From positions 62,001-126,000 of the forward strand of contig CANQBM010000004.1 in NCBI GenBank assembly GCA_947589575.1: a stretch of DNA of 64,000 nucleotides, read 5' to 3'. The DNA is from an uncultured Clostridia bacterium (GTDB taxonomy: Bacteria > Bacillota > Clostridia > Oscillospirales > Acutalibacteraceae). Positions 20,213 through 50,020 of this stretch are shown here, in pieces. The stretch's first letter is position 1, and every line of letters starts with the position of its first letter. The notes below the pieces were generated by a model, which was given only the letters and a program-made list of their open reading frames with translations, made no database searches and had not been told where the DNA came from. Made by a program: the position numbers and the translations under genes.

Positions 20213-20236
20213 ATGATTGTGAAAGGAGCTGTTCAT

Positions 20237-24514: not shown

Positions 24515-24536
24515 TTTTTATCCCTCTTTAAAACAA

Positions 24537-24564
24537 GCAATCCACCCCGTGAAGGATGGACTGC
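24537..24564 (-). terminator. Hairpin between the last WXG100 gene and the terminal membrane protein gene
   Basis: Minus strand GCAGTCCATCC pairs with GGTGGATTGC (G-U pairs included) followed by TTGTTTTA. It looks like an attenuator that lowers expression of the last gene of the cluster. Confidence 0.55.
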
Positions 24565-24571
24565 CTATAAT

Positions 24572-24856: not shown

Positions 24857-24897
24857 TGCCTTTCACCTCCTTATATCAGAATTAATATGATAATGTA

Positions 24898-25182: not shown

Positions 25183-25194
25183 AATCTACCTCTC

Positions 25195-26490: not shown

Positions 26491-26491
26491 A

Positions 26492-27070: not shown

Positions 27071-27081
27071 TATTTTGCTCC

Positions 27082-28464: not shown

Positions 28465-28468
28465 ACTA

Positions 28469-28870: not shown

Positions 28871-28883
28871 AATTTATGCCTCC

Positions 28884-29210
28884 TTAATAGTCCTTCATTG
28901 TAATCTCACCTTCAGATTTACCATTAATGGCCTTTGCTGCATCAGTATCCGCTTGTATGTAGCTTTCTTCTGCGGCAACTATATCTTCATACAATTCCCA
29001 TAATCCATTTTTTATATCTGAAACCTGAGATTCAAAAATATGATATTTTTTTTCAAATTCATTTCTAGTTTTTCCAGACCAATCAAAATATAATTTATCT
29101 ATAGCCTTGTCACAATCAAGGATTGCATCCTCTAGTTTCTCGGCAAGCTTTTTTGCAGAATTTGCTGCATTTGAAAAACTACTTGTATCAAGTTTGAAAT
29201 GAGTTTGCAC
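28884..29210 (-). CDS. WXG100-like small helical protein
   Basis: 108 residues: two helices joined by YFDWSGKTRNEFEKKY, a W-x-G turn, and a C-terminal tail. It is the first gene after essC (2-base gap), the usual place for an Esx-type substrate or Lap partner of an LXG effector. It may act with the product of 28469-28870. Confidence 0.8.
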   Translation of the reverse strand: MQTHFKLDTSSFSNAANSAKKLAEKLEDAILDCDKAIDKLYFDWSGKTRNEFEKKYHIFESQVSDIKNGLWELYEDIVAAEESYIQADTDAAKAINGKSEGEITMKDY

Positions 29211-32200: not shown

Positions 32201-33697
32201 ACTTTCATTATCAGTTACAATGTTTCTATAACCAGTATTTTTGTTAGTTACCTGTGGCAACAATCTTAATAGATGTAGTATCGACAATTCATTTTCATCG
32301 GAAGTATCTGATATAAAGAATAATTCAACATCGTTACAAAATTGCCTTGCTACTATATCTAAAACTATATTTTTAAATAAACCTATTCTATTGTTCTTTT
32401 CACCGTAAATTCCAATAGCGTTTATTTCTTTGAAATCGCATACAATAGGTACATTATCTATTGTTTTATACTTATCACTTAGATTTTGCGGTATTTCTTG
32501 TAATTCATCTTCTACTTCTAACTTTTCTTGTTTTTTATATGTAATACTTTTTATTGCAGGTAATGTTCCAGAGCCGAGATTTACTTGAAGAAAATCACTA
32601 TCGCTAGTACGCCTATCAAACAAGTTTGATGAGAACATTTCAAATTCTTCTATTTCTTTATCTTGATTGATATATATGTCGTTTAATAATGAACACTCGT
32701 CTTCTCTGTATTCTTCAATCTCTGCTGTCTTGTTTTCTATATATTTGTTGTATTTTTCAATTCGCTCTTCAGTTCCTTTTTTAAATTCTTTTTTATCATT
32801 TACTAAACTAATAATCGCAGTAATTACGCCCATAGCACTTGATAATAGCATAAATGGGGAAACTGAAATCATCGCTATTCCCATTACAATCATTAATGCG
32901 GATGGTAATAGTTTTGTCAACAAACTTCCTTTTGGCTTTTTAGGCGCAGAGGGAGGATCCAATACTTGTATTGGTTCATTATCTACAACATGTTTAACTC
33001 TAGTGTTTCTATTAAATTTTGGGTACTCTCTTGAACATTGATTATCGAAATATGTAATATTGGTGTTAACACTATCTGTTGCCTCTGTGTATAACTTTCC
33101 GTTTTTATAATAAAAACTAAAATTAGCAATTGATAAAAAATCACCATTTTTAATGTTTTCACCATTGACTGCCTTTTTACCATTGTGGTAAACGCCATAG
33201 TTTGCGTGATTTATTTGTAATGATAATCCCTTGTCGGTTGATTTTAGTGCAACACTGTCATTCTGTACATATTTACTATTTATTATAATATTATTGCCAC
33301 TTGCACTACCTATTGTAACAATTGGCATAGAAGAAATATCAATTATGCGGTCGTAGTTTTTCTTATCATTTTCAAAGTCATACAAAAACTCAACTTTAAA
33401 TACTTCTTGTCCTGAATTTTGATAACGCACAACAAACAAATCGCCATGTTTAAGGCTTTTTGATACAAGCTTTCTCACATCGCCATCGTCAATATATATA
33501 TTTTCAGAACACATTACCTCCCAGGCATTATCTTTTTTTGTAAACGACATCTGAAATGCCTCGAAAAAATCTTCTTTATATAATCGGACATCACAAGACA
33601 TATCCATTCCAAGATTTAACACTTCAGAATCTGCTGGAAGTTGAATTTCTCTATAAACTTTTTTACTTGATAATTTTATAATATAACCGTACTCCAT
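29213..33697 (-). CDS. essC: EssC-type FtsK/SpoIIIE secretion ATPase
   Basis: 1494 residues from the ATG at 33697, which has GGAGAG upstream; an ATG 12 bases earlier directly abuts the esaB stop. Order: two FHA-like domains (about 1-200), two transmembrane helices (about 260-300), then three P-loop modules. Module 1 has GTTGSGKS (about 686-693) and LILIVDEF; module 2 has GSSQTGKT (about 1011) with IFIDN in place of the Walker B DE; module 3 is degenerate (VVGKRTES). This is the motor of Firmicutes type VII secretion (EssC/YukB). Only the first module looks fully catalytic. Confidence 0.95.
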   Translation of the reverse strand: MEYGYIIKLSSKKVYREIQLPADSEVLNLGMDMSCDVRLYKEDFFEAFQMSFTKKDNAWEVMCSENIYIDDGDVRKLVSKSLKHGDLFVVRYQNSGQEVFKVEFLYDFENDKKNYDRIIDISSMPIVTIGSASGNNIIINSKYVQNDSVALKSTDKGLSLQINHANYGVYHNGKKAVNGENIKNGDFLSIANFSFYYKNGKLYTEATDSVNTNITYFDNQCSREYPKFNRNTRVKHVVDNEPIQVLDPPSAPKKPKGSLLTKLLPSALMIVMGIAMISVSPFMLLSSAMGVITAIISLVNDKKEFKKGTEERIEKYNKYIENKTAEIEEYREDECSLLNDIYINQDKEIEEFEMFSSNLFDRRTSDSDFLQVNLGSGTLPAIKSITYKKQEKLEVEDELQEIPQNLSDKYKTIDNVPIVCDFKEINAIGIYGEKNNRIGLFKNIVLDIVARQFCNDVELFFISDTSDENELSILHLLRLLPQVTNKNTGYRNIVTDNESKTFIFEYLYKELTTRVDAKSFSKHIVVFILDDNSFKSHPISKFIDTAKDIGVTFVLLSDIKENITTGCDYLIDITTANEATLIATANSEVSQSFKYNAISNHDFSNIVNLMAPVYAEEISLEGTLTKNISLFKLLNILSVDDIDLENNWNKSQVFKSMAAPLGVSKSGVVNLDLHDKAHGPHGLVAGTTGSGKSEILQTYILSMATLFHPYEVGFVIIDFKGGGMVNQFKELPHLIGAITNIDGKEIDRSLKSIKAELQKRQRLFAEAEVNHIDKYIKKFRKGEVAVPIPHLILIVDEFAELKAEQPEFMKELISAARIGRSLGVHLILATQKPSGQVNEQIWSNSRFKLCLKVQDQADSNEVIKSPLAAEIKEPGRAYLQVGNNEIFELFQSAYSGASERNDIMSVKEFEINSLNEYGKRSQVFAQKKKKNEEDNRTQLDAIVSYVNDFCLSNSIQKLPDICLPPLPDEIGFTDGGENTDKVAVGFYDDPDTQYQGDMFKNINENNLLIIGSSQTGKTNLLQLLIRSIASKQSPKEANFYILDFGSMIMKNFELLKHVGGVVTSTEEEKLKNLIKLLSLEINMRKEKLLSVGVSSFSAFIDAGFTDFPYIYIFIDNYPVFKELYSEKYEDDLLFLIREGLTYGLTFVMTSPSTSGLGYKYLSNFSEHIALSCNDTGEYSNLFDRCRIEPKNVPGRAITSFNKVIYEMQTYLAFDGKKEIDRVNSIRSFVEQCNQKYDISAKKIPEVPSVLSADYIEQNYNINPASQLTIALSYQTVEPVIIELTSMPLLSVVGKRTESMNLFVNSVLDNIKNYYFDRPSEVYIIDSFKREFKNFENEAYVNQYTVDYSNIDGIFEGVSMQLEERYNDVIDNGIENLNNAPYLLLIINSADAIEYVSKSKPLMEMYNTFMTKYKSMKFTILFTGIEDSNIGYSAPELYKKIKESKTAFIFSGLQEHKIFDIPIPFMRQNKKPLEITEGFFIRENDIDKIRFVEEV

Positions 33698-33709
33698 AAT
33701 TCTCTCCAT

Positions 33710-33961
33710 TTATTCAGTAAAGAATATTACTGTTCCGTTTCGTATGCCAAATTCCGCTAGTTCTTTGTTGCCTTTAAGTAATACTATTGGATTTTCAGCT
33801 TTCAAATAACAATTTGAGACATCACTCACATCAATTCCTAAATCAAAGCTAATATTTAAAGCATTTACTAAATCATTTGCAGATATATCTAAAGGAATTT
33901 CTAAGTCTGTTTCAAAGTCTTTTTTGGGAATCTTAAATGTTACAATTGCTTTGTTTTCCAT
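33710..33961 (-). CDS. esaB: EsaB/YukD-like ubiquitin-fold protein
   Basis: 83 residues with the beta-grasp pattern VTFKIPKKDFETDLEIPLDISANDLVNAL...GIRNGTVIFF seen in YukD/EsaB. These small cytoplasmic proteins are core members of type VII loci. The stop codon is immediately followed by the essC start region, implying coupling. Identification combines fold pattern, size and position next to essC. Confidence 0.82.
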   Translation of the reverse strand: MENKAIVTFKIPKKDFETDLEIPLDISANDLVNALNISFDLGIDVSDVSNCYLKAENPIVLLKGNKELAEFGIRNGTVIFFTE

Positions 33962-35039: not shown

Positions 35040-35987
35040 CTAATAAGTTATTGAAAAATCACTGTTTGCAAGGCGAATAACATCACCACTTTTTATAGGA
35101 AAAGGAGAGGTGTTTCTTAGTCTTACATTATTAACATAGGTACCATTTGTGCTTGGTTTTGTTCCATCTCCATCTATTATGAAATATCCGTTATTAAATA
35201 CAATTTTACAATGTACTCGCCCAATAGCTTTGTTAAAACTAATTACCCCATTTACCTTTGCTGGATTTTTTCCTAAAACATAAACAGAAGAACTAATGTT
35301 TAATTGTAGTGGATTATGTGGATCAAGAGAAGTTAATACAAGTGGGGGTTGAGATATATTAATATTTTTTTCTTTGTTTTTAGAATTATCTACATTTTCG
35401 TTATCGGGTATATATGTCTGAGCCGAACTTTCACTTCGAATATTTTTATAAAGTTCATTTAAAGTTAAAGACCCATTAGATAATAATGAACTAATTCTAT
35501 TCATTTTAGGATTTGATAACGACGGTGTCGAGGTAATAATTTTAATAAGGTCTGTCCTTAACTCGTTTTCAAAAGCCGAAACATCATCATTGTCGTTATT
35601 AATTGGTAAATAGATTAAATGAACTGCGAAAGTGTGTGAATCAATAAAAATTTTATCATAAGTTAAATCCAAATTATTACATGACAAAAAACCGTTGTTT
35701 TTTATATCAATAACAGCTTTTAACAGATTGGATATTATAATTATAAAAGTATCTGTATCAATTAAAGAAAGCATACTTTTGAAGTTCTTTTGACCAGATG
35801 TAAAATACAGCAATTTGGTTTTACCGTTATGTAAAACTTTTGCACATGACACAAAATCACTGTTACCTTGACTCTTCAAAACCTTATATCCAGTAAGATT
35901 AAAAAGCGAGGCATCTTCAAGTATATATGACACATTTTGTGTGTTTTTTAATTCGGTAATTTTACCTGATTGTAAAAACTCTTTCAT
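35040..35987 (-). CDS. DUF6382-like plus FHA domain protein
   Basis: 315 residues from the ATG at 35987 with GGAG upstream; a longer in-frame start lacks that support. The N-terminal 170 residues (SYILEDASLFNLTGYKVL..., FAVHLIYLPIN) resemble DUF6382, and the C-terminal 85 residues are an FHA domain (VLGKNPAKVNGVI...GRVHCKIVFNNGYFIIDGDGTKPSTNGTYVN). The FHA domain should bind phosphothreonine made by the cluster kinase. No transmembrane helix is present. The N-terminal domain is related in pattern to that of the protein at 45568-46806 and could stand in for EssB; this is inference. Confidence 0.78.
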   Translation of the reverse strand: MKEFLQSGKITELKNTQNVSYILEDASLFNLTGYKVLKSQGNSDFVSCAKVLHNGKTKLLYFTSGQKNFKSMLSLIDTDTFIIIISNLLKAVIDIKNNGFLSCNNLDLTYDKIFIDSHTFAVHLIYLPINNDNDDVSAFENELRTDLIKIITSTPSLSNPKMNRISSLLSNGSLTLNELYKNIRSESSAQTYIPDNENVDNSKNKEKNINISQPPLVLTSLDPHNPLQLNISSSVYVLGKNPAKVNGVISFNKAIGRVHCKIVFNNGYFIIDGDGTKPSTNGTYVNNVRLRNTSPFPIKSGDVIRLANSDFSITY

Positions 35988-36118
35988 AATGCTTTCTCCA
36001 ATTAAGAACTTAAAAACTAAAATACATATTTTTGCGTGTGCAAAAATCCATATTTTAATCTTCAAGGTCTATATGCAAGGCGCAGCAAGTGCGCCTTGCA
36101 TAATTTAATTAATTAAAA

Positions 36119-39100
36119 TTATTCGACTTGTGCAGTCGGTTCTTCTTCGTCATCCTTCTTACGTCTCTTAAAGAGAATGAAGAATACTAATCCACCACCT
36201 GCTAATACTACTGCGCCAACGATAGCCCAGAATACCGGCGATTTAGCCCAAATTACAAGCTGATTGGTTGTTACCGTAATATTGTTAAAGAATACATATC
36301 CGGGGTCATAGTTCTTTTCATCATCAGTATCAATAACGTTGCCAGCTTTATCAGTAGCCACAATCCTTACTGATTGTTCGTTAGAACTTCTGTTAAGTGT
36401 GATTACGCCACCATCAAATGTATTAAAGTCATCAAAATCTTTTCCGTAAACATATGTGTTTTGAAGTCTGTTATCAACATATACCTCAACTTTTTCAAGT
36501 CTAATGAGGTCTTCAACAGTAAAGTTAATATCTAACTTCTCTGCTTTTGCGGCACCACCATCGTGTCCGGCAATCTTATTTACCTCAGTAGAATAATTGA
36601 CAGAGATAATATCTGCCGGAGTTGAATCGACTCTAAATGTTGCACTACATACATCATAGTCAACGGTTTGAGAAGTGATAGAAGCAGAGTCCTTTGAAGA
36701 TATACGAAGTGTATATGTTCCGTCCTCAGTAAAGTTCTCAGGACTTATTTCATACGTAAACCTACTCCAAGAGGTATCCGTCTGTCTATCATCCAGCGTT
36801 ATCTTGTAGTCTCTTGATTTCTCAAGAGTTGTCGAATCATTGTTTGCAATTACTTCGACATTTTCCTTGGTAAGTAATGTGGTATTATACTCATAAACAG
36901 TTAAATCATCTGATGTGAGTTTTTGAGTGTAACCATCATTTTCTGTAATCAACTTATAGAGACTATCACTGAAAGTAAAGACCGAACCGAAACGGTTTGC
37001 AGAGAACTTAATAATGTTTTTCTGAGTATCATATGCATTTCCGGCTTTATCCTTTGCTTCGATAGTTAAAGTGTAAATGCCATCGTTTTTAACTCCGTCC
37101 TTGTCTCTCTTTGGAATAGTGATTTTAGCCGTAGCATTTGAATTACCTGATGCGTTGCTTACAAATTGAGAAGTAACATCAACATTGTCTTCAACACATT
37201 GCTTTTCAGGATTATCTTTAACGTTTTCCTGTTCGGTGTCATAATTATTATTGCTTTCACCTACAACAAGAACTCTGCTTCTTGTAAGTTTCACATTGTA
37301 ATTATCAAGGTTAACATCGTTAATAATAATAGAGATGGTTGCGTCAGGATTTACAATTCCGTCATTAAGACCAAGAACTTCACCATCTTTGATGCCCTCA
37401 ACTTTTACAATTTCATTGTATGTAGTATCAATTGTAAAGTCTTTTCCTGCAACAGAAGCACCAAAGTCAGCACCAGTATCCTTATTGCCTGCCATATCGG
37501 TCATCTTAACATCAAATGTAAAATCTCCATCAAAATCATATTTGATTGTAGCTATATGCGTATTGCCATTGTGTGACCACGATATTCCAGGATCAGTAAT
37601 GTCATTTCCAGACAATTTGGAGTCTCTTGTCCATTCAACTCTGTCAAGGTCAAAGTTGTGTTCTATAATTGTAATGGTAGCTGTTCTATGAGCCTTAAAG
37701 TACTTCTCGTTCTGAACTTCATTATTGTCATATGAAACAGAGATTTTGGGAGCAGTTTTATCAATTGTGAATTTGTTATCAATACTTCTATCAGCATCAT
37801 TTTGTGCTGCATAGTTTGTGGTTTTGTTGCTGCTATACTTTACGGCTTTGTCCTCAACTTTGTTGTCTGCAAAGTCCTTAGCATTAACTGCAAAACTATA
37901 ATCACCATCATCAGTAAATTTATAACTCATCTTGTATACATAACATTCAACTCCATCAATTACGGTTTCACCAACCTTCTTGAATTCAGGAGTGATTTTT
38001 ATTGTAGATTTAGATTCGTTATCATCTACTCTTGAAACTACATAATTAAAGTCTTCTGATTTAAAGTTTCTCTCATAAACATAGATGTCAGCTGTTCTAT
38101 CAACATTGAAGAAACCAGCGTGCTTTTCATCATCGTTTTCATTCATTTGAACAGCGATTTTGGGAGCAGTCTTATCGATTGAAAGAACCTGTGTAACATT
38201 TTCAGTCTTGTTACCAGCTCTATCGGTAAGGGTAATCTTAATTTTAATATTATTACTATTATTAGAAATGGTAATATTGTTCTTAAGATTGATAACCAGA
38301 TTGCTTTCGTTTGTTGCAGTCCATTCACCAATGCAATCAGCGCTGTATCCTTCTTTTGCTTTTGATGTTACAACGCCATCATTGTCAACTGTAACCGTAC
38401 CTGCTTCTTTCTTGTCGTCGTAAGGAGAAACAATTTCCCAGTCTATCTGTCGGATACCAGAATATGAATCAACAACCTCTATTCCCACTGTTGTATTAGC
38501 TGCATAAAGATTATTTCCGTCAGCGTCCTTATAAGGTGTTTCCTTAAGGGTATATGTAACACTACTGCTTTTTTCGTGCTGCTCAGGGCTTTCTATTACT
38601 GCACTGTTGGGATTTGAATACTCGTCTGGAGTATTACCAACATTGTCTGTTGCCTTTGCATATATCTGACCCTTGAAATCTGCGGGAATTGTAAAATAGA
38701 TTTTATTGTTTTCATCTACAAGAGGTGATAATTCTTGGCTCTTTCCGCCATCCTTGTCAACTGTATAGTAGCTAATAGTTTTAATACCCGAAGTAGGCTC
38801 AACATCATGAGAAGTAATAGTAACTTTAGTATCCTCTATAAAATAGAAGCCATAAGTAGTTTCTTGAACGGGAGCCTGATTTGTTTCTTTAACTTCGGTA
38901 TCCTTATCATAACCAGTTGCTTCAAATTTAAAATCAATAATTGAAGGCTTATCAATGTCTTTGAAAATGGTCTCGGTATACAAATCGGAAACATTACCAG
39001 CATTATCTGTAACAGAAACAGTAATTGTATATGAACCATCTTCTTTTATATCAACTTGATCAGTATTAACTGTAAAGTCGAGTTCTGTAGTCTTTTCAGA

Positions 39101-42100
39101 TTTCTTATTAAATTCCTCAGCAATATTCTTTGAACTTTTGTCTGTTGTTATTGCTGTGTCATTAATCTTTACATCGACTTTTCTTATTCCAGAATCAGCA
39201 TCTTTAATATTGATATTAAAGTCTATATCGTCCGCATACCACTTGTTTGTGTCCGCTGTTGCAGGATTCTTATCGGTAGCTGCATCAAGGAATGTAACAT
39301 TTACTACTGGCTTTTTGGTTTCAATCATTAATCCGCTGTTGGCAAATGTTTCCGAATTAGTGGTTGTAGGCTGTATAAAATCTGCTGTAACATTGTTTAC
39401 ATTATCTGTAGCTTTTGCAGAAATCTCTTTGTTAAGGTGCATGGTTTCATCAGCTATGTCCTCAGCGGGCACAACAAATGTAGCTACGCCCTCAATAATC
39501 GGTTGCGTATCAAGAGCTGTTTCATCTCCATAAAGGGTAATTTCTTTTAATCCGGAAGAATCACCGCTATCATTGGCTGTTACTTTTATTTCAATTTTTT
39601 CATTAAAGAAGTTGCCAAATGTAAGGAAATTTAATACCTTCTCAAGTGCTGATATTCCTTTTGAAGCAAACTCAAAATTCGTAATATCAGGCTTAACGGT
39701 ATCAATATATAATGTGCCATTTATATTAGTTTTTTTACCGTTCTTTAAGGTAACTCTACCGGTAATGGTATTTGCACCTGTTTTTAATGTTCCGTCTTGA
39801 TTGGTGTTAATTGAAAATGTTTTTGTGCTGCTAAGTCCTTCGTTAATTGCGTTTCCTTGGGAGTCAGCAGTAATATCTGTTCCGTTAAGTTTAAGCTCTA
39901 TCTTCTTGATAGCAACTCCGGAATGATTAGAATCTATGGCAACTGTAAATAATGCGTCTCCGTTATACCAATCTTTGTTATCTGCATCAGTGTACTTGCC
40001 ATCGGTTTGATTTGTAACTGTTACACTTGCTTCAGTAGTACTAATTGTAACCTTGTTACTGGTGTATTCTGTTGTAACATCAGTCGGAGTTTTTACATCG
40101 CTATTATTGCCAGCTTTGTCAATGGCATATGCAGAAACAGTTTTAGCATTATCAAAATCACCTTTTTTAAGAGTGAATGTAGCCGAATTGCTACTATTAA
40201 CCGTCACTGCCTCGCCATAGGCATTTCCATTAACAAGAAGTTGAATCTTGCTAACGCCAGAATTGGTAACAGTACTGTCTTTATCCGAAGCAGTTACAGT
40301 TACTTTAATATTGTCGCTTGCATATATACCTGTGTCATCAGAGGTTTCATAGTCAGCAAACTCAAAGTTATCAACTGCGGGTTTTGTTGTGTCAATTTTT
40401 GCGGTAAACTGTTTTGCATTTGATACATTTCCTGCAACATCTACTGCGTAGATGTAATAAGTTTGATTTTGTTCTCCACTTAAAGTAAACGAGTAATTAC
40501 CATTTGTAATAACTGTTTTATTCTCTGTTTCAGCCTTTACAGCATCATTAGATAAAGATGTTTTGCTCCAAACAACATAATCCAGACCGCTTGAAGGATT
40601 GTTATTCGGATTTTGTGTATTATCAGTTACCGAACCAGTTACTGTATAGGAACCAGTTTTATCCCATTCCATTGCGGGTATATCGTTTACTTCTGGCTTT
40701 GTGTTATCAATAAGAACAATAATTCTAGCATTTGGAGCACCTAAATCAAGATTAATAGTATTTCTATATTTACCAGATTTTACCTGAAGCACTTCAATTA
40801 TCTTAGTACTGTTTATAGTCCTATTCGATTTCCATCCTTCATATGCCTTATATCCTGACGGAACTGAATATTTGACATCAAAGTATGTGTATGGCGTTTT
40901 AGGTTCAATTTTTACATTTGAACCACTCGTATAAGTCATTATGATATCATTGCCATTCGTTTTTTCACTAATAAGACTACCTGAAGTTGCAATAATTGAA
41001 ATTTTATCCTTCCAATCACCAGTGTCTTTGGGTATTTCTTTGAAAGTAGCATTAACAGAGGTATTAGCCTTTATGTTAGAGATTGTATAAGTTGCACTAC
41101 CATCTTTGTTTGCAACAAAGGAGTCAACTGTTTCAATATCAATTTCTGCACCATTTACAGATACAGAATCAACCATGTAGGAATTAGAGTCTGGGGTTAT
41201 TGTTATAACCGCTTGACCATCATAATCAACAGTTTCGTTACTCGTGGTTACAGAACCATTGTCGCCAGAAGAAGTTGTAACAGTATATGTGTTAACAGCA
41301 AATGTTACTATTACTGTCTTCTCGCCAGTCACATTTGATACAGTATCAGTGTAAGTTGTATCATCATTACTTCCATCTGTAAGAGGATTATCAGAATTAG
41401 TAACCTTTTCTACATGATAGCCTTCGGATGCATTTGCTTTCGCTGTAAATTCTACTGTTCCATTTTCATCAACAGTAACATCTGTTACCTGACCACCTAA
41501 AGCTGTTTTATCGGTATCGTAAGTCACTTCACCGTTTTTAGAAACGTCAAACTTAACAATATATGTCTGCTTATAGAAAGATACACTAATTGAATAATCC
41601 TGCTTAATATTACTAATAGGAATAGTAACACTCTGCTGACCTTTGTAGGCCTCTGTGTCGGAGCCATATCCAGTAACAGTATCTATTCTATATCCTGTGT
41701 TTGCGGTTATGGTAATTTCTTTTGATTCACCATATTCAACACCAGTGATACTGTCAGAAATCGAGCCATTGCTACCTGCGCTTGTCGTTATATTAAAAGT
41801 CTTAACAGTAAGGTCAATATCTGCTAACTCATTGTTAGAATCAGAGGGGGTAATGGTTTTATTAGCAACTGTATTATACTTATCATCAAATGTATAAGAA
41901 ACCGTGTATTTTACACCTTTATAAGCGTCAAAAGAATAGATTCCGTCATTATAATCGGCTTTGCCTGTTACTTTGCCATCGTATGCGGAATAATTTACAG
42001 TTACAGAAGTTGGCGCATTACCGTTTTCATCCGCTACTGCGCCTGTTACATTGATTTTTTCTATTGCAGTAAAATCGGTTGATGAAACTTCTAACTCAGA

Positions 42101-42424
42101 GCCCTCAATAGCGATATTATTAGCTGAATAGTCTTCGTATCCTATCAAGTTTGCAATAGAAAGATTATATGTTTTTTCATCATCAACAAATGTTTCAAAT
42201 ACTGCTTTGCCGTTATCAGCATCTACAGTCTTGGTATCTGTTGAATCCGTAGTAGAGGTAAGCGTTACCTTTGCCGATTCGTTATACCCAGAAATGTTTA
42301 CAGTAAACTCAGCTGCTTGCGAGGCAAATACTCCGACAACACTAGCTGGTACAGCACCAACCAAAAGTGCAATCGCAAGAAGCAATGCCATTAGCTTCTT
42401 TGAAACTTTTTCTTTAACAACCAT
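36119..42424 (-). CDS. Giant membrane-anchored Ig/repeat surface protein of the T7SS operon
   Basis: 2101 residues from the ATG at 42424, eight bases after GGAGG. A signal peptide (about 1-37, LMALLLAIALLVGAVPASVV) is followed by bacterial-repeat domains (TSSGDNGSVTTSNETVDYDG), then at least eight Ig-like repeats with D-x-A/V-G-N turns (VDVAGNVSN, IDKAGNNSD, TDRAGNKTE, TDMAGNKDT), and one C-terminal helix (about 2065-2088) with tail FKRRKKDDEEE. There is no LPXTG motif; it is held by the helix. Cotranscription with the kinase and essC suggests a surface stalk or sensor of the type VII apparatus. It could equally be an adhesin. Confidence 0.8.
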   Translation of the reverse strand: MVVKEKVSKKLMALLLAIALLVGAVPASVVGVFASQAAEFTVNISGYNESAKVTLTSTTDSTDTKTVDADNGKAVFETFVDDEKTYNLSIANLIGYEDYSANNIAIEGSELEVSSTDFTAIEKINVTGAVADENGNAPTSVTVNYSAYDGKVTGKADYNDGIYSFDAYKGVKYTVSYTFDDKYNTVANKTITPSDSNNELADIDLTVKTFNITTSAGSNGSISDSITGVEYGESKEITITANTGYRIDTVTGYGSDTEAYKGQQSVTIPISNIKQDYSISVSFYKQTYIVKFDVSKNGEVTYDTDKTALGGQVTDVTVDENGTVEFTAKANASEGYHVEKVTNSDNPLTDGSNDDTTYTDTVSNVTGEKTVIVTFAVNTYTVTTSSGDNGSVTTSNETVDYDGQAVITITPDSNSYMVDSVSVNGAEIDIETVDSFVANKDGSATYTISNIKANTSVNATFKEIPKDTGDWKDKISIIATSGSLISEKTNGNDIIMTYTSGSNVKIEPKTPYTYFDVKYSVPSGYKAYEGWKSNRTINSTKIIEVLQVKSGKYRNTINLDLGAPNARIIVLIDNTKPEVNDIPAMEWDKTGSYTVTGSVTDNTQNPNNNPSSGLDYVVWSKTSLSNDAVKAETENKTVITNGNYSFTLSGEQNQTYYIYAVDVAGNVSNAKQFTAKIDTTKPAVDNFEFADYETSDDTGIYASDNIKVTVTASDKDSTVTNSGVSKIQLLVNGNAYGEAVTVNSSNSATFTLKKGDFDNAKTVSAYAIDKAGNNSDVKTPTDVTTEYTSNKVTISTTEASVTVTNQTDGKYTDADNKDWYNGDALFTVAIDSNHSGVAIKKIELKLNGTDITADSQGNAINEGLSSTKTFSINTNQDGTLKTGANTITGRVTLKNGKKTNINGTLYIDTVKPDITNFEFASKGISALEKVLNFLTFGNFFNEKIEIKVTANDSGDSSGLKEITLYGDETALDTQPIIEGVATFVVPAEDIADETMHLNKEISAKATDNVNNVTADFIQPTTTNSETFANSGLMIETKKPVVNVTFLDAATDKNPATADTNKWYADDIDFNINIKDADSGIRKVDVKINDTAITTDKSSKNIAEEFNKKSEKTTELDFTVNTDQVDIKEDGSYTITVSVTDNAGNVSDLYTETIFKDIDKPSIIDFKFEATGYDKDTEVKETNQAPVQETTYGFYFIEDTKVTITSHDVEPTSGIKTISYYTVDKDGGKSQELSPLVDENNKIYFTIPADFKGQIYAKATDNVGNTPDEYSNPNSAVIESPEQHEKSSSVTYTLKETPYKDADGNNLYAANTTVGIEVVDSYSGIRQIDWEIVSPYDDKKEAGTVTVDNDGVVTSKAKEGYSADCIGEWTATNESNLVINLKNNITISNNSNNIKIKITLTDRAGNKTENVTQVLSIDKTAPKIAVQMNENDDEKHAGFFNVDRTADIYVYERNFKSEDFNYVVSRVDDNESKSTIKITPEFKKVGETVIDGVECYVYKMSYKFTDDGDYSFAVNAKDFADNKVEDKAVKYSSNKTTNYAAQNDADRSIDNKFTIDKTAPKISVSYDNNEVQNEKYFKAHRTATITIIEHNFDLDRVEWTRDSKLSGNDITDPGISWSHNGNTHIATIKYDFDGDFTFDVKMTDMAGNKDTGADFGASVAGKDFTIDTTYNEIVKVEGIKDGEVLGLNDGIVNPDATISIIINDVNLDNYNVKLTRSRVLVVGESNNNYDTEQENVKDNPEKQCVEDNVDVTSQFVSNASGNSNATAKITIPKRDKDGVKNDGIYTLTIEAKDKAGNAYDTQKNIIKFSANRFGSVFTFSDSLYKLITENDGYTQKLTSDDLTVYEYNTTLLTKENVEVIANNDSTTLEKSRDYKITLDDRQTDTSWSRFTYEISPENFTEDGTYTLRISSKDSASITSQTVDYDVCSATFRVDSTPADIISVNYSTEVNKIAGHDGGAAKAEKLDINFTVEDLIRLEKVEVYVDNRLQNTYVYGKDFDDFNTFDGGVITLNRSSNEQSVRIVATDKAGNVIDTDDEKNYDPGYVFFNNITVTTNQLVIWAKSPVFWAIVGAVVLAGGGLVFFILFKRRKKDDEEEPTAQVE

Positions 42425-42445
42425 TTTCATTTCCTCCATATCTCT

Positions 42446-43042: not shown

Positions 43043-44752
43043 TTAGCCTTCAAGATGTTCATATTGAGTTTCCACAGTACTTCTAACATTATTTATATTA
43101 TTTAAAACATATATTTTTGTTTGGTAAGCACGGCTTTTCTCATTTTCAACTTCGTTAATACCATCAGCTTTCTGCTTAATCGTATCAAGCAAGCTTAAAA
43201 CTGTATCCTTATCAACTGCTCCAAAATTTGGGCTTGCTATATACTTAATGTTTGTATTAACAAAGTCTAATGTTGATTTATACATTGCAGCTTTTACAAA
43301 GTTAGCATTGCTTTCCTGATATTCATCTAGATAGTCAATACATTTTTGAATTGAATCAAAGACGTCTTCATATTGTTTTTTATAATCCGGAGTCTCGACT
43401 CCATTTCCACTATCAGATTTGTAGAAGTTACAAATGGTGTAGAAATTTGTAGCCATTTCCGACTCAGTAAAGTTACCGTCTTTAATGTTTTCAAAATACT
43501 TAATAGCTTTCAATGCACGTTCACTTGTTGAAGAGTCCGACGAGAATTCATAATAGAAGAAATTGTTCATTCCTGCTTCATATGTAATTTTTGCAAACTC
43601 TTCATCATAGGTTCCGTCTGTGTAGGTAGCCTTAAGCTGATTATATATTGTGCTAAAGCCCTGAGACTCTTTTTCAGTAATATTATCATCTGATATAATA
43701 TAAGAAAGGAAGTTTTCGTAAGCTCTCTTATCAGTTTTATTGATTTGAATAGCTGTATTTATATTACTAATCGCAGTATCGTAATCCTGACCGTTAATTT
43801 CTACTAACACATCATAATTGTTACTTTCGGCGTTCTTTGCAAGATTTGCAGTAACCAACCCCGTTATAGCAAAAATAATTGCCAACGCTATTGAGACAAT
43901 AAACATCAAGAGTTTTCTCTTTTGAGTTTTCTTAAAAGAATCTTCCTCTTCTGTATAGTGCTCTAAGGCATATAGAAGTTCATTACAATTCTGATATCTA
44001 TCTTTTGGGTCAGGAGATACACACTTATCAATTATTCTTTCAAGACCACCGGACAGTTCAGGATTCCATTGCCTTATCGGTGCATAAATATAATCTGCCG
44101 GTCTTGGATCAACACCCGTTACAAGATGGTGCATTGTCATACCAAGCGTATAAATATCCGACCTTGCATCAGTTTGTCGTGAACCATAGTGTTCCGGAGA
44201 AGCGTAACCCTTTGTTCCAAGAACTGTCGTATCTGCAAGATTTGTTTCTTTATACTCACGAGCAATACCAAAATCTATTATTTTGATGTTGCCTTCAGGC
44301 TTAAGCATTACATTTGCCGGCTTCATATCACGATAAATAATTGGCGGCTTTTGTGAATGCAGATACCCAAAAGCATCACATATTTGTTTTGCCCAATCGA
44401 TTACAAGTTCCTGCGGTTGAGCGCCATATTCATTTAGAACCTTATCGAGTGATTCACCCTCTACATAGTCCATAACAACATAGATGTACTCTTCATCTTT
44501 ATGGTCTATGATGTCGACTATTCTTGGAATAGCGGGGTGGTCTAACCTTTTCATCATTTCGGCATCGGCAGGCACTTCATTGACAATTTGCTCATTGTTT
44601 TTACCAACGCCGGTTCTTTTAATCTCTTTTACTGCCCACTGTTTATTAAGTCGCTTATCCATTGCCAGATAAACAGTTGACATTCCACCTTTACCGATTT
44701 GTTTAAGTATTTCATACTTGCCATCGATAACTGTACCGATCTGTGTAGCCAA
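43043..44752 (-). CDS. Membrane Ser/Thr protein kinase (Hanks type) of the T7SS cluster
   Basis: 569 residues. Catalytic domain 1-265: glycine loop IGKGGMSTV, lysine in WAVKEI (42), YRDMKPANV (HRD with H to Y, Asp retained), IIDFGIA, and activation loop ADTTVLGTKGYASPEHYG. One transmembrane helix (about 281-305) precedes an extracellular helical region of about 260 residues with no PASTA domains. All catalytic residues are kept, unlike the host pseudokinase at 9319-10980. The activation-loop TTVL matches the repeated T-x-[VIL]-L motif of its neighbours. A PP2C phosphatase gene lies 10 bases upstream. It probably controls the secretion system by threonine phosphorylation. Confidence 0.93.
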   Translation of the reverse strand: MATQIGTVIDGKYEILKQIGKGGMSTVYLAMDKRLNKQWAVKEIKRTGVGKNNEQIVNEVPADAEMMKRLDHPAIPRIVDIIDHKDEEYIYVVMDYVEGESLDKVLNEYGAQPQELVIDWAKQICDAFGYLHSQKPPIIYRDMKPANVMLKPEGNIKIIDFGIAREYKETNLADTTVLGTKGYASPEHYGSRQTDARSDIYTLGMTMHHLVTGVDPRPADYIYAPIRQWNPELSGGLERIIDKCVSPDPKDRYQNCNELLYALEHYTEEEDSFKKTQKRKLLMFIVSIALAIIFAITGLVTANLAKNAESNNYDVLVEINGQDYDTAISNINTAIQINKTDKRAYENFLSYIISDDNITEKESQGFSTIYNQLKATYTDGTYDEEFAKITYEAGMNNFFYYEFSSDSSTSERALKAIKYFENIKDGNFTESEMATNFYTICNFYKSDSGNGVETPDYKKQYEDVFDSIQKCIDYLDEYQESNANFVKAAMYKSTLDFVNTNIKYIASPNFGAVDKDTVLSLLDTIKQKADGINEVENEKSRAYQTKIYVLNNINNVRSTVETQYEHLEG

Positions 44753-44762
44753 GACGCACCTC

Positions 44763-45533
44763 CTACATTATGCTTTTCAGAAGTGCAACCGTAATGTTGT
44801 CTCGTTCATTTCTCTTTTTAACAACATCAATCAAATAGTCGCCGTTCTGTTTCATTGTTTCAATACTATTCAAGTTAAGAGGGTTAAACTTATCCAACAT
44901 CTCATTATCTTGAAGGACGTGTCTAAATCCATCTGAACAAGCCATATATACTGTATTTGGCACTACTGCTCCAAATGTAATAACTGGTTCTACATCTCTT
45001 GATGCGCCAACGCACTGTAAAAGCATGTTTCTTTTTGGATGTACAGCTGCTTCTTCTGGTGTCATTCTGCCTGCATTGATTTCTCGTCTGATAAAGGTTT
45101 GATCCTCAGTTAATTGGCTTACTGTATCCGAGACTTCATAAACTCTCGAATCTCCAACTTGTACAATCATATAATTATTTTCAATAACAATGAATGCACT
45201 TAAAGTTGTACCAAGATTCACTCCAATAGTCTTTCCGTATTCAAGAATTTTCTGATTTTGTTCCTTTATCATCCTTTTCCATTCTTCGGATAACTTTTCC
45301 CACGAATAATCATTAATTTTCTGTGGTAGTTCTTTCTCAAACCATTGTGCGCAGCGTTTTATCACAGTAGCAGAAGCAAGCTCGCCTTTTGCAAGTCCGC
45401 CCATTCCATCACAGATAACCATCATTGCCGCTTGACCTTTTCCGTCAAACTCTGCAATTTTTAGACAAGCACTATCTTGGTTTGTTTGTTTGACAATTCC
45501 AATATCGGTTGATACTGCTCCAAAATAATTCAT
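44763..45533 (-). CDS. PP2C-family protein phosphatase
   Basis: 256 residues with all PP2C motifs: STDIGIVKQTNQDS, VICDGMGGLAKGELAS, GTTLSAF, VGDSRVYEV, LTEDQTF, ACSDGF and ERDNITV. The metal-binding aspartates are present, so it should be an active Mn/Mg-dependent Ser/Thr phosphatase. It lies 10 bases before the kinase gene and 34 after the FHA gene. It is expected to reverse the kinase's phosphorylation of the FHA-binding motifs. Confidence 0.95.
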   Translation of the reverse strand: MNYFGAVSTDIGIVKQTNQDSACLKIAEFDGKGQAAMMVICDGMGGLAKGELASATVIKRCAQWFEKELPQKINDYSWEKLSEEWKRMIKEQNQKILEYGKTIGVNLGTTLSAFIVIENNYMIVQVGDSRVYEVSDTVSQLTEDQTFIRREINAGRMTPEEAAVHPKRNMLLQCVGASRDVEPVITFGAVVPNTVYMACSDGFRHVLQDNEMLDKFNPLNLNSIETMKQNGDYLIDVVKKRNERDNITVALLKSIM

Positions 45534-45567: not shown

Positions 45568-46806
45568 TTATGAAACATGAAACTCAAATGGTTCATTTGC
45601 CAGCATTAAAGTATCACCATCATATATTTCGGTTTCTTGATTTACCGGAATCATTGTTCCGTTAACAAATGTATGATTAGTTGAATTGTTGTCTTTAATG
45701 TAATAGCGGTTATTCCTCGTTACTATATCTGCATGAATTCTGCTTACGGCATTGTTGCTCATTACAAAAAAGTCAACATAACTTTTTTCTTTACCTATCC
45801 TAAAAACAGGTTTGTTTACGAATACTTTTTCAAATGTATTCAAACGAATTAAGTATGGAAATACAGGTGTGTTATCTTTTAGAACTGTTGTACCTTCATT
45901 TTCATCTAAAACAGTCGTTCCCTCATCATCGTAATCAAGAACGTCAGTTCCATAATTGTCACTTTCTTCTTCGAGCAATCCCGTGTCGCCGAAATCATCA
46001 TCTTCTTCGAGCAATCCTGTGTCGCCAAAATCATCATCTTCTTCAAGCAGCCCAGTATCGCCAAAATCGTCGTCCTCTTCCAGCAATCCCGTGTCACCAA
46101 AATCATCATGCTCATCAAGCAATCCCGTTGCTTCGTCGAAGTTATCAACTTTTTGGTTTTGTGACGAATAGTCTGAATCATATTTTTTTTCAAAATATGT
46201 TCTTCCAGTTTGCTGAAGTATTTGACTATCGCCTGGTTTTGACCTTTTAACTTGTCTGTAAACTCTTGGATAAACACCGATTATGTATTTTTCCAAATCA
46301 TTACTTGAAAAGGTTTTAGTACTGTGCAAATACTGTATTAGATGATTTATAAAATCTCTGCTTTCACTTATGTTTAGTACAGTTTCATTTATAATTTCAT
46401 AAATGAATGAATAAACATTGTTAGCTGCGTTCGCATCGTTAATTGGTTGATAGATAAACTGCACTTCTCTTGTCATTTGATTAAAGAAAATGTATTTAGT
46501 GTCAAGTATCAAATTATTTACACTAAACCCTTCTCTTTCCACTTTCTTTAAGCACTCAACAAATTGAGCAAATATTACAAAGAAGTCGTTTTTAGAAAGA
46601 CCGATTCTCAAGTAATCAAAAAGACTGATGTTGCCAGGAGCTGTATATTCAATTTTTCTTTTTCCTGTAACATTTGGTCGCATCAAACCACGAATAAACT
46701 TAGTCTTAAATATGTCAAGCTCGTTTTGATTTATAGACTGCGTTCTATCGATTTTGCATTTGACCAAAATTTGGGAGTTCTTTATGCTAACTTTCAACTT
46801 AGTCAT
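45568..46806 (-). CDS. FHA-domain protein with repeated T-x-[VIL]-L motifs
   Basis: 412 residues, first gene of the operon, with AAGAAGG before the ATG. The N-terminal domain (about 1-190) resembles DUF6382 (YIFFNQMTREVQFIYQPI). A linker at 227-309 carries eight motifs: TGLL five times in an acidic 12-residue repeat, TDVL once and TTVL twice. A C-terminal FHA domain (332-410) has FRIGKEKSYVDFFV, NAVSRIHADI and NSTNHTFVNG. FHA domains bind pThr with preference at +3, and these motifs place Leu at +3. It is therefore a likely multivalent scaffold that binds itself and partners once phosphorylated by the neighbouring kinase. Confidence 0.88.
   Translation of the reverse strand: MTKLKVSIKNSQILVKCKIDRTQSINQNELDIFKTKFIRGLMRPNVTGKRKIEYTAPGNISLFDYLRIGLSKNDFFVIFAQFVECLKKVEREGFSVNNLILDTKYIFFNQMTREVQFIYQPINDANAANNVYSFIYEIINETVLNISESRDFINHLIQYLHSTKTFSSNDLEKYIIGVYPRVYRQVKRSKPGDSQILQQTGRTYFEKKYDSDYSSQNQKVDNFDEATGLLDEHDDFGDTGLLEEDDDFGDTGLLEEDDDFGDTGLLEEDDDFGDTGLLEEESDNYGTDVLDYDDEGTTVLDENEGTTVLKDNTPVFPYLIRLNTFEKVFVNKPVFRIGKEKSYVDFFVMSNNAVSRIHADIVTRNNRYYIKDNNSTNHTFVNGTMIPVNQETEIYDGDTLMLANEPFEFHVS
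45965..46141. repeat. 36-bp coding tandem repeat
   Basis: About five copies of a 36-bp unit inside the FHA gene, encoding the acidic TGLL repeat (EEDDDFGDTGLL). Copies differ mostly at third codon positions, which points to selection on the protein rather than recent slippage. Confidence 0.85.
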
Positions 46807-46828: not shown

Positions 46829-46844
46829 GTAGAACTGTGAGTTC
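46829..46844. repeat. Left inverted repeat of the putative invertible segment
   Basis: GTAGAACTGTGAGTTC, the exact reverse complement of 48214-48229. It lies between the T7SS promoter and the first T7SS gene. The inner part GAACT-GTG-AGTTC is itself nearly palindromic, as expected of a tyrosine recombinase core site; the central GTG gives it orientation. Confidence 0.75.
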
Positions 46845-46876
46845 AAATCATTAAATAATTATTTTTATTCTGTCAC

Positions 46877-46906
46877 ATTTTATCATATATATCATTAATA
46901 TGTCAA
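46877..46906 (-). promoter_or_regulatory. Promoter of the T7SS/kinase operon
   Basis: Minus strand TTGACA, 18 bases, TAAAAT, directed toward the FHA gene start at 46806. It lies inside the segment bounded by the 16-bp inverted repeats. No other comparable promoter was noticed in the cluster, where genes are tightly packed. Confidence 0.75.
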
Positions 46907-46934
46907 TATAAATGAGGTGATTTTTATTAACAAA

Positions 46935-46962
46935 TTGATAACAAAGCATCTATATATAGAAT
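46935..46962 (+). promoter_or_regulatory. Possible promoter of the tyrosine recombinase gene
   Basis: TTGATA, 16 bases, TAGAAT, about 80 bases upstream of the recombinase start, diverging from the T7SS promoter. Confidence 0.4.
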
Positions 46963-46987
46963 AATTTTTAAATTCTGTTTCTATTTA

Positions 46988-46999
46988 TGGTCAAAATTA
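46988..46999 (+). repeat. Candidate arm-type site of the tyrosine recombinase (left)
   Basis: TGGTCAAAATTA, closely similar to the two copies at 48146-48170. Short direct repeats at both ends of a tyrosine-recombinase unit often bind the enzyme's N-terminal domain. Confidence 0.5.
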
Positions 47000-47039
47000 T
47001 GGTATTAATATTAACGTCAATTATAGGAGGGAGATTTAT

Positions 47040-48131
47040 ATGCCAAGACATGGTGAAAACATTTATAAAAGAAAGGATGGCAGATGGGAAGGGAGATATA
47101 TTTTTTCTTACAGTGACAGCGGAAGAGCAATTTACAAATCCGTATATAGTAAAACATATGCGGAAACTAAACATAAGCTTGAAATCGCAAAAAACAATAA
47201 ATCAAGCATTAACAAATCCACCCAAATAAATACATTTAGTGATTTGTGTTATTACTGGCTTGAATTTAACAATTCCAAGAATAAGCAAACAACACAGGAT
47301 AAGTATAAGTTTCTTATTAAAAAACATATCGAATCCGAACTTGGAAAAGTTAATCTTAACAGAATTTCATCATCAATGATTAATAAATTCATTGATGGTA
47401 AAATTAAAATTTTATCAAATTCTTATGTCAGAACTATGGCGATTATTATTAAATCTGCTTTACAACTCGGTATAAAGGAACAGTTTGTTTTTATGCCTAA
47501 TTTAGATATTCATTTGCCAAAACAAACAAGGCATGAATTGAAAATTTTATCTGTTACGGAACAGAATATACTTGAAAAATATATTTTGAATAACCTTGAT
47601 TTTACGGCACTTGGAGTATACATTTCTCTTTATGCAGGTCTTCGCATCGGGGAGGTCTGTGCCTTGCGTTGGAGTGATATTGATTTTGAAAATCATATAA
47701 TTAATATCAATTCAACTGTAATCAGAATTAAAGGATCTAATGGAAAAAGTTATGATGATATCAGCTCGGCTAAAACTAATGCGTCAATTAGAGATATTCC
47801 CATATTTAATAAGCTTTATATTCTGCTATTAAAAATGAAAAGATTAAGTAATTCGCCATATGTTATTTCTGCAAAGGCAGGTTTTGTTAATAAGAGAACA
47901 TATGAATATAATTATCATAAAATTTTGAAAAATGCCGGTATAAATGATATTAATTACCATGCCTTAAGGCATACTTTTGCAACAAGATGTATTGAGTGTG
48001 GTATGGATGTAAAATCTCTCAGCGAAATTTTGGGACATTCAAATGTTTCAATTACGCTTAATACCTATGTTCACTCGTCTATGGAGCTTAAGAAAATTCA
48101 GATTGAAAAGCTCAACAATTTAATAGCCTGA
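47040..48131 (+). CDS. Tyrosine recombinase (phage integrase family), putative invertase of the T7SS promoter segment
   Basis: 363 residues. An N-terminal arm-binding segment (GENIYKRKDGRWEGRYIFSY), a SAM-like core-binding domain (about 65-155) and a catalytic domain with all active residues: YAGLRIGEVCALRW (Arg I), HALRHTFATRC (H-x-x-R), LGHSNVSITLNTYVHSS (His/Tyr). The ATG at 47040 has AGGAGG upstream. The gene lies entirely within perfect 16-bp inverted repeats and next to the T7SS promoter. It could be an invertase or a captured integrase; the inverted orientation of the sites favours inversion. Confidence 0.92.
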   Translation: MPRHGENIYKRKDGRWEGRYIFSYSDSGRAIYKSVYSKTYAETKHKLEIAKNNKSSINKSTQINTFSDLCYYWLEFNNSKNKQTTQDKYKFLIKKHIESELGKVNLNRISSSMINKFIDGKIKILSNSYVRTMAIIIKSALQLGIKEQFVFMPNLDIHLPKQTRHELKILSVTEQNILEKYILNNLDFTALGVYISLYAGLRIGEVCALRWSDIDFENHIININSTVIRIKGSNGKSYDDISSAKTNASIRDIPIFNKLYILLLKMKRLSNSPYVISAKAGFVNKRTYEYNYHKILKNAGINDINYHALRHTFATRCIECGMDVKSLSEILGHSNVSITLNTYVHSSMELKKIQIEKLNNLIA

Positions 48132-48145
48132 TTATTTTCTATTGC

Positions 48146-48170
48146 TGGTCAAAAATTTTGGTCAAAAATT
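48146..48170 (+). repeat. Candidate arm-type sites of the tyrosine recombinase (right)
   Basis: Two direct copies of TGGTCAAAAATT, 13 bases apart, just after the recombinase stop codon. They match the single copy at 46988-46999. Confidence 0.5.
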
Positions 48171-48171
48171 A

Positions 48172-48210
48172 GCGGATGCTCTGTTTTATCGGAGTCTCCG
48201 CATTTTTGTT
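48172..48210 (+). terminator. Terminator of the tyrosine recombinase gene
   Basis: GCGGA-TG-CTCTG pairs with CGGAG-TC-TCCGC, an imperfect stem, followed by ATTTTTGTT. It lies inside the putative invertible segment and would insulate the recombinase from genes outside. Confidence 0.6.
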
Positions 48211-48213
48211 ATA

Positions 48214-48229
48214 GAACTCACAGTTCTAC
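48214..48229. repeat. Right inverted repeat of the putative invertible segment
   Basis: GAACTCACAGTTCTAC, the exact reverse complement of 46829-46844. The distance between the outer ends is 1401 bp. Confidence 0.75.
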
Positions 48230-48325: not shown

Positions 48326-48349
48326 CAGCGCATTCAAACGAATGCACTG
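48326..48349. terminator. Strong bidirectional terminator outside the right inverted repeat
   Basis: CAGCGCATTC-AAAC-GAATGCACTG (one mismatch or wobble) is flanked by runs of eight A on the left and eight T on the right. It would stop a transcript from the T7SS promoter if the segment were inverted, and it also ends the converging HTH gene. Confidence 0.85.
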
Positions 48350-48398: not shown

Positions 48399-48653
48399 TC
48401 AAAATTTTTTATTATCATATTCTCTCATAAACAGCAATAATTTTTTCCAGCACTTATAATGCGGTTTAGCTTGTCCGAGTTCCCATAGTTGAAGAGCATT
48501 TATTGAGATGCCTGTTAGATTTGAGAGTTCGGTCCGCTTGAGATTATGCTTTTTTCTGAAGTTTTTGATTTTGGTTGGATTGTACAAATTGACTGATGGA
48601 TTTATGGTTACTTTGACGAAGTTTTTATTCTTTTCAGCCATCGGAGTTGCCAT
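48399..48653 (-). CDS. Small HTH (XRE/Xis-like) protein at the right end of the element
   Basis: 84 residues with a helix-turn-helix: KIKNFRKKHNLKRTELSNLTGISINALQLWELGQAKPHYKCWKKLL. The start at 48653 (or 48641) has no clear ribosome binding site and lies 11 bases from the attR core, inside the tail of the truncated feoB frame. In the circular form it would lie directly downstream of the serine recombinase across attP. It may be a recombination directionality factor or a regulator; this is inferred from size and position. Confidence 0.65.
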   Translation of the reverse strand: MATPMAEKNKNFVKVTINPSVNLYNPTKIKNFRKKHNLKRTELSNLTGISINALQLWELGQAKPHYKCWKKLLLFMREYDNKKF

Positions 48654-48663
48654 AATGTTGGTG

Positions 48664-48671
48664 GAGGAAAT
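48664..48671. repeat. attR core
   Basis: GAGGAAAT, the direct copy of 18411-18418, at the point where the feoB sequence stops matching the family. Confidence 0.85.
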
Positions 48672-50020
48672 CTGCCGTTACAGGGGGACAATGAGTTTGT
48701 AATGATTGCGACTAAACGTTCGCGGGGTGAATCAATAATCCTGCATCCTGTTACGCCGACAGCATTACAGCCGTATCCCATACATGTAGTAAGAGCCTGT
48801 TTTCCGCAGGCACCGCAGCGTTCAAAGGCCCCGTCAAGATTAAATGCAATACGCGGCAGAACACCGAAATCCTCAAGAAGTGCAAAAAGCGGAAAAAAGA
48901 TTGCCATAGGAGGCAGCATCACCGCAACGACCCACAAGAGAACTCTGAGAACGCCATTGACGAGAAGGCTTACAATCGTCTGCGATACGCCTATACTTAT
49001 CATTGAATCTGCAAGCCACACTTCAAAGCGGTCAAAAACCGTCCGCAAAAAATCTGACGGATAGTTCGAACCTGCTATTGTTATCCATAAAACTATACCG
49101 AAAAGCAGCAGCATTACAGGTATTGACGTATATTTTCCCATCAGTATTTCGTCAAGCTTTTTTTCCATTTGCTCTTTTTTTGATGGAAGCTCTTTTACGG
49201 TATACTCAACAATACTGTTGGTTACATCAAATATTGACGAGGTAATGGACTTGACATAATTATCGGAATTTAAACCAAGCTGTGAAAGGTCACACCTTGC
49301 TTTATTCAAATTACCCCTCAGATTGCCTTTAAGAAAAACATCTTCACCGAAGTGTTTTTTAAATGAGTTATTAAAGCTTTCGTCATTTTCAAGAAGTCTA
49401 AGGGCGAAAAAACGAAGATTTTTGTCTGTATCAACAGTACACTTAAGCCCTTTTTTCACCTGCTTGACCGCACTCTCAATTTCGTTCAGATAAAAGAGAG
49501 TTTTTACTTCATTTTTAACTGTACCGTTTGATATGAGATGAACCTGCTCAAGAAGCTCGTTAATTCCCTTTCCGCTTCTTGCGGTTGCTTTTATAACCGG
49601 CACTCCCAAAAATCTTGACAGTCCTTGTATATCAACAGCTATATTTTTCTTTTTTGCCTCGTCCGCTAAATTGAGAAGCACAACAACCTTATCCGTTACC
49701 TCAATAACCTGCAATACCAGGTTAAGATTACGCAAAAGATTTGTGGCGTCAACAACGCATACAACACAATCATAATTCTCAAAGCAGAGATAATCTCTTG
49801 CAAGCCGTTCTTCCTCGCTTGAGGAAAGCAAACTGTATGTACCGGGCAAATCTATAAGCTCATAATTTAAAAACTTATAGTAATATTCGCCCTTAGCAAT
49901 GTCTACTGTCTTTCCCGTCCAGTTGCCTGTATGCTGATGTGAGCCTGTTATTTCATTAAAAACCGTGCTTTTGCCGACATTCGGATTGCCCATTAAAAGC
50001 ACCCTTTTTTTCCTTTTCAC
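48664..50020 (-). pseudogene. feoB: feoB, 5' part (interrupted by the inserted element)
   Basis: About 452 codons of a ferrous iron transporter. The G domain has GNPNVGKST, NWTGKTVD, DLPGTYSL and LNLAD; membrane helices follow (SIPVMLLLFGIVLWITI..., LRVLLWVVAVMLPPMAIFF), then GYGCNAVGVTGCRIIDSPRERL. After the core at 48664-48671 the frame runs 19 codons into element DNA (to 48608) and stops. The missing C-terminal half is at 17719-18410 and rejoins in frame. Its start overlaps the feoA stop by four bases. Without the second gate region iron transport should be lost while the element is integrated. Confidence 0.94.

Follow-up and report, generated by a model that had tools for sequence, protein, structure and literature searches.

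A putative self-contained invertible promoter switch before a type VII secretion operon on a mobilizable element of gut Clostridia

A 1.4-kb segment (46829-48229) situated ahead of a type VII secretion system (T7SS) operon is proposed to be a self-contained invertible promoter switch of that operon, a reading to which we assign a probability of about 0.86. The window, by which we mean the entire 64,000-nucleotide stretch of DNA analyzed, derives from an uncultured Clostridia bacterium. In related genomes the segment occupies this same position in either direction, and it is for this reason that it probably turns the T7SS on and off. The features of the segment and its immediate surroundings are as follows.

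46829-46844, plus strand: left inverted repeat (putative recombination site), GTAGAACTGTGAGTTC, located by repeat search and by a 16-mer search of the organism's own genome
46906-46877, minus strand: outward promoter TTGACA-18-TAAAAT with TGn before the -10, directed toward the T7SS operon; 11/12 match, present in four whole cassettes
47040-48131, plus strand: tyrosine recombinase, 363 aa (Pfam Phage_integrase, E 3.3e-26; Phage_int_SAM_3)
48172-48208, plus strand: terminator-like hairpin of the recombinase gene, inside the right repeat (z -4.6)
48214-48229, minus strand: right inverted repeat (putative recombination site), complement of GTAGAACTGTGAGTTC
48326-48349, found on both strands in the terminator scan: terminator outside the right repeat (fold z -6.3)

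The initial annotation had described perfect 16-bp inverted repeats at these positions, and the two copies are indeed identical at 16 of 16 bases; extended, the pair reaches 25 nt at 88% identity. In the 700-bp flanks of the recombinase gene the longest perfect inverted repeat is 16 bp, compared with 8-13 bp in 100 dinucleotide-preserving shuffles, and since the shuffled flanks reach at most 13 the repeat is beyond chance expectation. Allowing up to two mismatches, the 16-mer occurs at only these two places in the organism's own genome (1.96 Mb, 32 contigs). A master recombinase serving further copies of the site was also considered, and the genome holds none at that tolerance. When viral contigs were scanned for the window site, 11 contained a single match. 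The left repeat and the bases next to it form the dyad TAGAAC-TGTGA-GTTCTA, and each repeat is part of such a dyad, the structure expected of a tyrosine-recombinase core site; repeats of the GGTCAAAA type, which we infer to be arm-type sites, lie within the segment on either side of the recombinase gene. The cores of the repeats vary between loci (CTGTGAG, CTGCGAG, CTACGAC), the two copies at each locus agreeing with one another, which is what continued recombination would require. The gene between the repeats, previously annotated as a complete tyrosine recombinase, proved to be intact, and its product contains the motifs GLRIGE, HALRH, LGHSN, and NTY, which presumably hold the catalytic residues.

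The operon ahead of which the segment lies comprises 17 minus-strand genes (46806-24038; 22.8 kb) with gaps of 0-57 nt. Its earlier description as a T7SS/kinase operon was upheld, with EssC, YukD, WXG100, and kinase proteins recognized among the products of the 17 genes; the parts of the operon are given here in order of transcription.

45568-46806, minus strand: FHA-domain protein, first gene of the operon (domain search)
44763-45533, minus strand: PP2C phosphatase (domain search)
43043-44752, minus strand: Ser/Thr protein kinase (domain search)
36119-42439, minus strand: 2106-aa protein with weak Ig-like and OmpL47-like matches (domain search)
35040-36065, minus strand: second FHA-domain protein (domain search)
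33710-33961, minus strand: YukD/EsaB-like T7SS protein, 83 aa (Pfam YukD, 31.2 bits, cut-off 27)
29213-33709, minus strand: T7SS ATPase EssC (TIGR03928, 1111 bits, cut-off 778.4)
24038-29210, minus strand: remainder of the operon, including three WXG100 proteins and a TPR protein (domain search)

EssC, YukD/EsaB, and WXG100 proteins thus occur within a single operon, the combination by which a Firmicutes T7SS is recognized; EssA, EssB, and EsaA gave no match among the operon proteins scanned. The FHA, PP2C, and Ser/Thr kinase genes at the operon start, together with the second FHA gene, suggest that phosphorylation control may be imposed on top of the switch. The nearest T7SS relative is found in genome G014, whose EssC is 57% identical and whose contig begins at the large repeat protein, and EssC relatives are also present in G037 and G049.

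Segment and operon reside together on an element that splits feoB, for which the following features were recognized.

18413-48671: mobilizable element, 30.25 kb, splitting feoB, with GGAAAT at both junctions (recognized from the feoB parts and the junctions)
18480-20108, minus strand: large serine recombinase (Pfam Resolvase, Recombinase), the probable integrase of the element
22044-22361, plus strand: MobC/NikA-like mobilization protein (domain match)
22322-23266, plus strand: relaxase (domain match)
48399-48653, minus strand: small helix-turn-helix protein at the element end, just inside the feoB junction (HTH_3, 25 bits, cut-off 23)

The C-terminal part of feoB lies at 17719-18408 and the N-terminal part at 48608-50020, the GGAAAT copies occupy 18413-18418 and 48666-48671, and unsplit feoB homologs exist in members of the genus, among them G011 and G023. 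An integrase, genes for mobilization, and junctions within a disrupted target gene, here feoB, are what characterize an integrative mobilizable element and, as had been claimed from the outset, the T7SS is accompanied by a MobC/NikA-like protein and a relaxase; judged by gene content, the 30.25-kb element is mobilizable. A Phd/ParE-like toxin-antitoxin pair (20213-20807) lies beside its mobilization genes. The small helix-turn-helix protein, which relatives also have with other neighbors, is a candidate regulator of the element or of the switch.

Five loci carry the segment at the same place on the feoB side. The promoter points toward the operon in two, the window and L047 (CAMNST010000015.1), and away from it in three, namely L046 (JAIDVA010000386.1), G008 (the genome of locus L033) and, in part, G015 (the genome of locus L232). 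Comparison of relatives for inverted copies had been proposed as a check on the switch, and both orientations at one locus, a defining property of invertons, were found across related genomes; the repeats enclosing an outward promoter of the neighboring operon, a second such property, are present in the window. The left flank of L046, read outward from the repeat, aligns with the right flanks of both the window (79% over 3.0 kb) and L047, and its right flank corresponds to the left flank of L047 (92% over 2.6 kb), the two cassettes themselves being 92% identical. Because the flanks match crosswise, L046 is inverted relative to both L047 and the window. In L046 and L047 the identification of the T7SS rests on the FHA-PP2C-kinase genes, as the contigs end before EssC. 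In G008 the recombinase faces the T7SS and EssC starts 40 bp beyond the 16-bp core; in G015 it is the promoter end that adjoins the feoB side, on a contig that breaks off 31 bp after the repeat. A 256-bp promoter-end probe against 80 genus genomes (E below 1e-30) matched the organism's own genome, G008, G081, and G097, of which the last two add no cases since they are contigs of L046 and L047. Two further genomes share the feoB-side end with no cassette in view, other genes being next in G021 and the contig starting there in G004. Simple integration of the 1.4-kb unit was also considered; the locus that it predicts, in which the unit is precisely absent and one repeat copy is left, was not encountered among the loci examined.

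The -10 of the outward promoter sits 71 nt upstream of the FHA start codon, and the promoter is kept in four whole cassettes that include both orientations. A promoter does precede the operon as annotated and is the best match there, but its description as the only strong one needs qualifying, since a second minus-strand 11/12 match begins at 35761 within the second FHA gene. One 11/12 match is likewise present on the opposite (plus) strand over these 23 kb, so that one hit this good may arise by chance; it is nevertheless possible that the match at 35761 gives partial internal transcription, leaving the second half of the operon partly on. The strong terminator noted just beyond the right repeat was recovered, and L047, L046, L033, and L232 have a similar hairpin beyond the feoB-side repeat, that of L046 being only weakly better than shuffles (z -1.55). 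The automatic terminator scan of the window, L046, L033, and L047 listed a feoB-side terminator in the window only. The window, L046, and L047 each have a hairpin just inside the recombinase end (z about -4.5 in every case), with a stem sequence in the window that differs from that in L046 and L047, and one is visible in the alignment in L033. This arrangement of promoter and terminators is compatible with ON and OFF states.

In the mechanism that we propose, the tyrosine recombinase would act on the two inverted 16-bp sites and flip the 1.4-kb segment. The window orientation would be ON, with the outward promoter reading into the T7SS operon, while in the inverted, OFF state transcription from the promoter would run into the terminator outside the repeat on the feoB side; the recombinase would then be transcribed toward the T7SS, but only as far as its own terminator just inside the repeat. 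Because the gene travels with the segment, the recombinase would be present in both states and the switch could be reversible. Inversion would be expected to occur, and to be reversed, within one population, with T7SS expression following segment orientation, and switch and T7SS would be carried together on the mobilizable element inserted in feoB.

The segment belongs to a wider family of cassettes. A flanking inverted repeat of score ≥15 was found in 65 of 80 genome loci encoding relatives of the recombinase (60 of 75 when six identical cassettes are collapsed); in ten shuffles per locus, made by moving two-base blocks, a score of 15 or 16 was reached in three loci. Some of the 15 loci without a repeat of score 15 have little flank. 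In a comparison of 17 recombinases from the genus and order, two of which lacked flank, repeats of 16-31 bp accompany 7/7 close relatives with enough flank, and none of the eight distant recombinases reaches a score of 14. All ten cassettes re-examined in genus and order genomes, which are 1158-1507 bp long, reach a repeat score of ≥14. The organism's own genome contains a second cassette of the same family (G000:C6:90424-91812), with a 41% identical recombinase and 14-bp inverted repeats. Between the left repeat and the gene, a promoter match of ≥10/12 is present on the outward strand in 53 of 65 cassettes and on the other strand in 12 of 65 (L057 and L139 left out, L061-L065 collapsed, L077 of score 14 kept); mean best scores are 10.6 outward, 8.7 inward, and 8.4 in shuffles made by the same block procedure, and no clear outward promoter is seen in 12 of the 65. 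In a tree of 63 rows, a chosen part of the loci from which 10 minus-strand rows were left out (the repeat searches being strand-independent), a group of 51 rows (SH-aLRT 99) gathers 39 of 40 repeat-flanked recombinases and 12 of 21 without a repeat.

The first cargo genes next to these cassettes are diverse, no function being dominant among the 70 of 115 candidate genes scanned. Across 62 distinct loci, several of them on contigs that end close by, genes run away from the recombinase's end only in 26, from the promoter's end only in 10, from both in 18, and from neither in eight; should the target be the cargo on the recombinase side, the majority of sequenced copies would be in the OFF state. 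T7SS cargo is seen in the feoB group and, separately, at L098 in Lachnospiraceae, an unrelated lineage, where the recombinase is 38% identical and EssC (945 bits, cut-off 778) starts 2 bp past the repeat. One identical 1411-bp cassette is found in Butyricicoccus, Blautia, Agathobaculum, Negativibacillus, Eisenbergiella, and Brotaphodocola records (L060-L065), and its identity in six genera indicates that it moves across them. Family cassettes with inverted repeats and the recombinase toward the cargo were also observed on Enterococcus plasmids, upstream of a WxL surface-protein operon in L242 and before a signal peptidase/glucosaminidase operon in L244. It is somewhat better than an even bet that the family represents a widespread, exchangeable plug-in phase-variation cassette of ~1.2-1.5 kb, made up of a tyrosine recombinase, an outward promoter, and inverted sites, centered on Clostridia and placed independently before T7SS operons at least twice (the feoB-element lineage and L098), such that mobilizable elements would deliver a T7SS that is on in part of the population.

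Such mobility raises the question of whether the segment is a small mobile cassette, an integrase between terminal inverted repeats, whose two orientations record separate insertions rather than flipping. The recombinase is integrase-like, its best sequence matches among solved structures carrying the name Int protein, related cassettes adjoin very different cargo, and one identical copy is shared by six genera. However, all five feoB-side loci have the segment at the same place and in both orientations with no precise absence, the two cores co-vary within pairs, and the outward promoter is conserved, so that we regard separate insertion as improbable. A segment that was formerly invertible and is now locked, its orientation having been fixed in different species long ago, appears just as improbable. 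It would account for each orientation being known from a different species only and for near-identical copies of other family members sharing a single orientation: no orientation change was found among the six identical Clostridia cassettes, nor in the Enterococcus raffinosus plasmid pairs L239/L240 and L244/L245, each pair having one orientation. Against it, the repeats are perfect at each locus while the cores drift between species, and dN/dS of the recombinase is 0.077-0.116 in six pairwise comparisons among relatives (dS of 0.9-1.4 makes the ratios rough in five), by which measure the gene is under purifying selection.

Least probable of all is that the inverted state of the relatives was created by assembly at short repeats. 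L046 and L047 are metagenome assemblies, the G015 contig breaks shortly past its repeat, and with repeats of 16-26 bp in the relatives misassembly is possible for any single assembly; yet the inverted state is found in three assemblies, repeats of this length should be spanned by reads, and an assembly mixing the two would itself indicate that both forms exist. The invertible promoter switch remains the preferred reading.

If this reading is correct, the orientation of a DNA segment would make the T7SS of these gut Clostridia a bet-hedged trait, and one that moves between strains along with its switch. Reading out orientation in cultures or stool metagenomes would show when the T7SS is on, making its use by commensals testable. 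The family of cassettes also resembles a compact, naturally occurring ON/OFF module in which one enzyme serves one site pair per genome.

The kind of system proposed here is known, since self-carried recombinases, invertible promoters, invertons on mobile elements, and phase variation of T7SS have each been described. In the Hin segment an internal outward promoter sets a downstream operon ON or OFF, and inversion is catalyzed by a recombinase of the serine type with the help of Fis and an enhancer. As in the Salmonella Hin segment (fljBA), the recombinase gene of the window lies inside the segment that would invert (PMC5903667). The window segment differs in its sites, T7SS target, and location on a mobilizable element, and its recombinase is of the tyrosine type rather than a Hin-family serine recombinase; for this last reason it would work like Hin without being a member of that class. 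The recombinase also lies inside the segment in a putative case described for a fimbrial locus of Providencia stuartii, an 844-bp segment with 14-bp repeats beside an operon, which by that description differs from the window in its fimbrial target and lineage (PMC5903667). On this point the initial annotation went too far, since a recombinase housed within the segment that it inverts is not in itself new.

Among clostridial systems, invertons of group 139 have been linked to tyrosine invertase group 35 and, as described, resemble the window in having a tyrosine recombinase beside inverted repeats in Clostridia; these groups may include the window cassette family, and T7SS is absent from the targets described in the portion of that account available to us (PMC11892184). 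C. difficile RecV is likewise a tyrosine recombinase that inverts promoters in a clostridial species, one reported to serve several sites (PMC5903667), whereas the window site has no further copy in its own genome. Integrative conjugative elements of Bacteroidales combine an invertible promoter with a local invertase on a mobile element, as the window does, but are described with the invertase outside and upstream of the invertible region, with resistance-gene cargo and in another phylum (PMC8748976). Phase variation affects a T7SS in M. tuberculosis ESX-1 variants, which are reported to arise by indels in homopolymeric tracts and not by inversion (PMC11898584), and large inversions in S. aureus were reported to be accompanied by lowered T7SS expression in switched colonies (PMC6778178). 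The term ‘secretion system’ does not occur in the available portion of a 2025 review (PMC11868660), and among the papers listed for invertible promoters, invertible DNA, DNA inversion, or phase variation in combination with T7SS none was found to place a T7SS under the control of an invertible promoter. Relative to these systems, the novelty lies in three things: the target is a T7SS, the tyrosine-recombinase cassette is self-contained and sits on a mobilizable element, and it occurs in both orientations.
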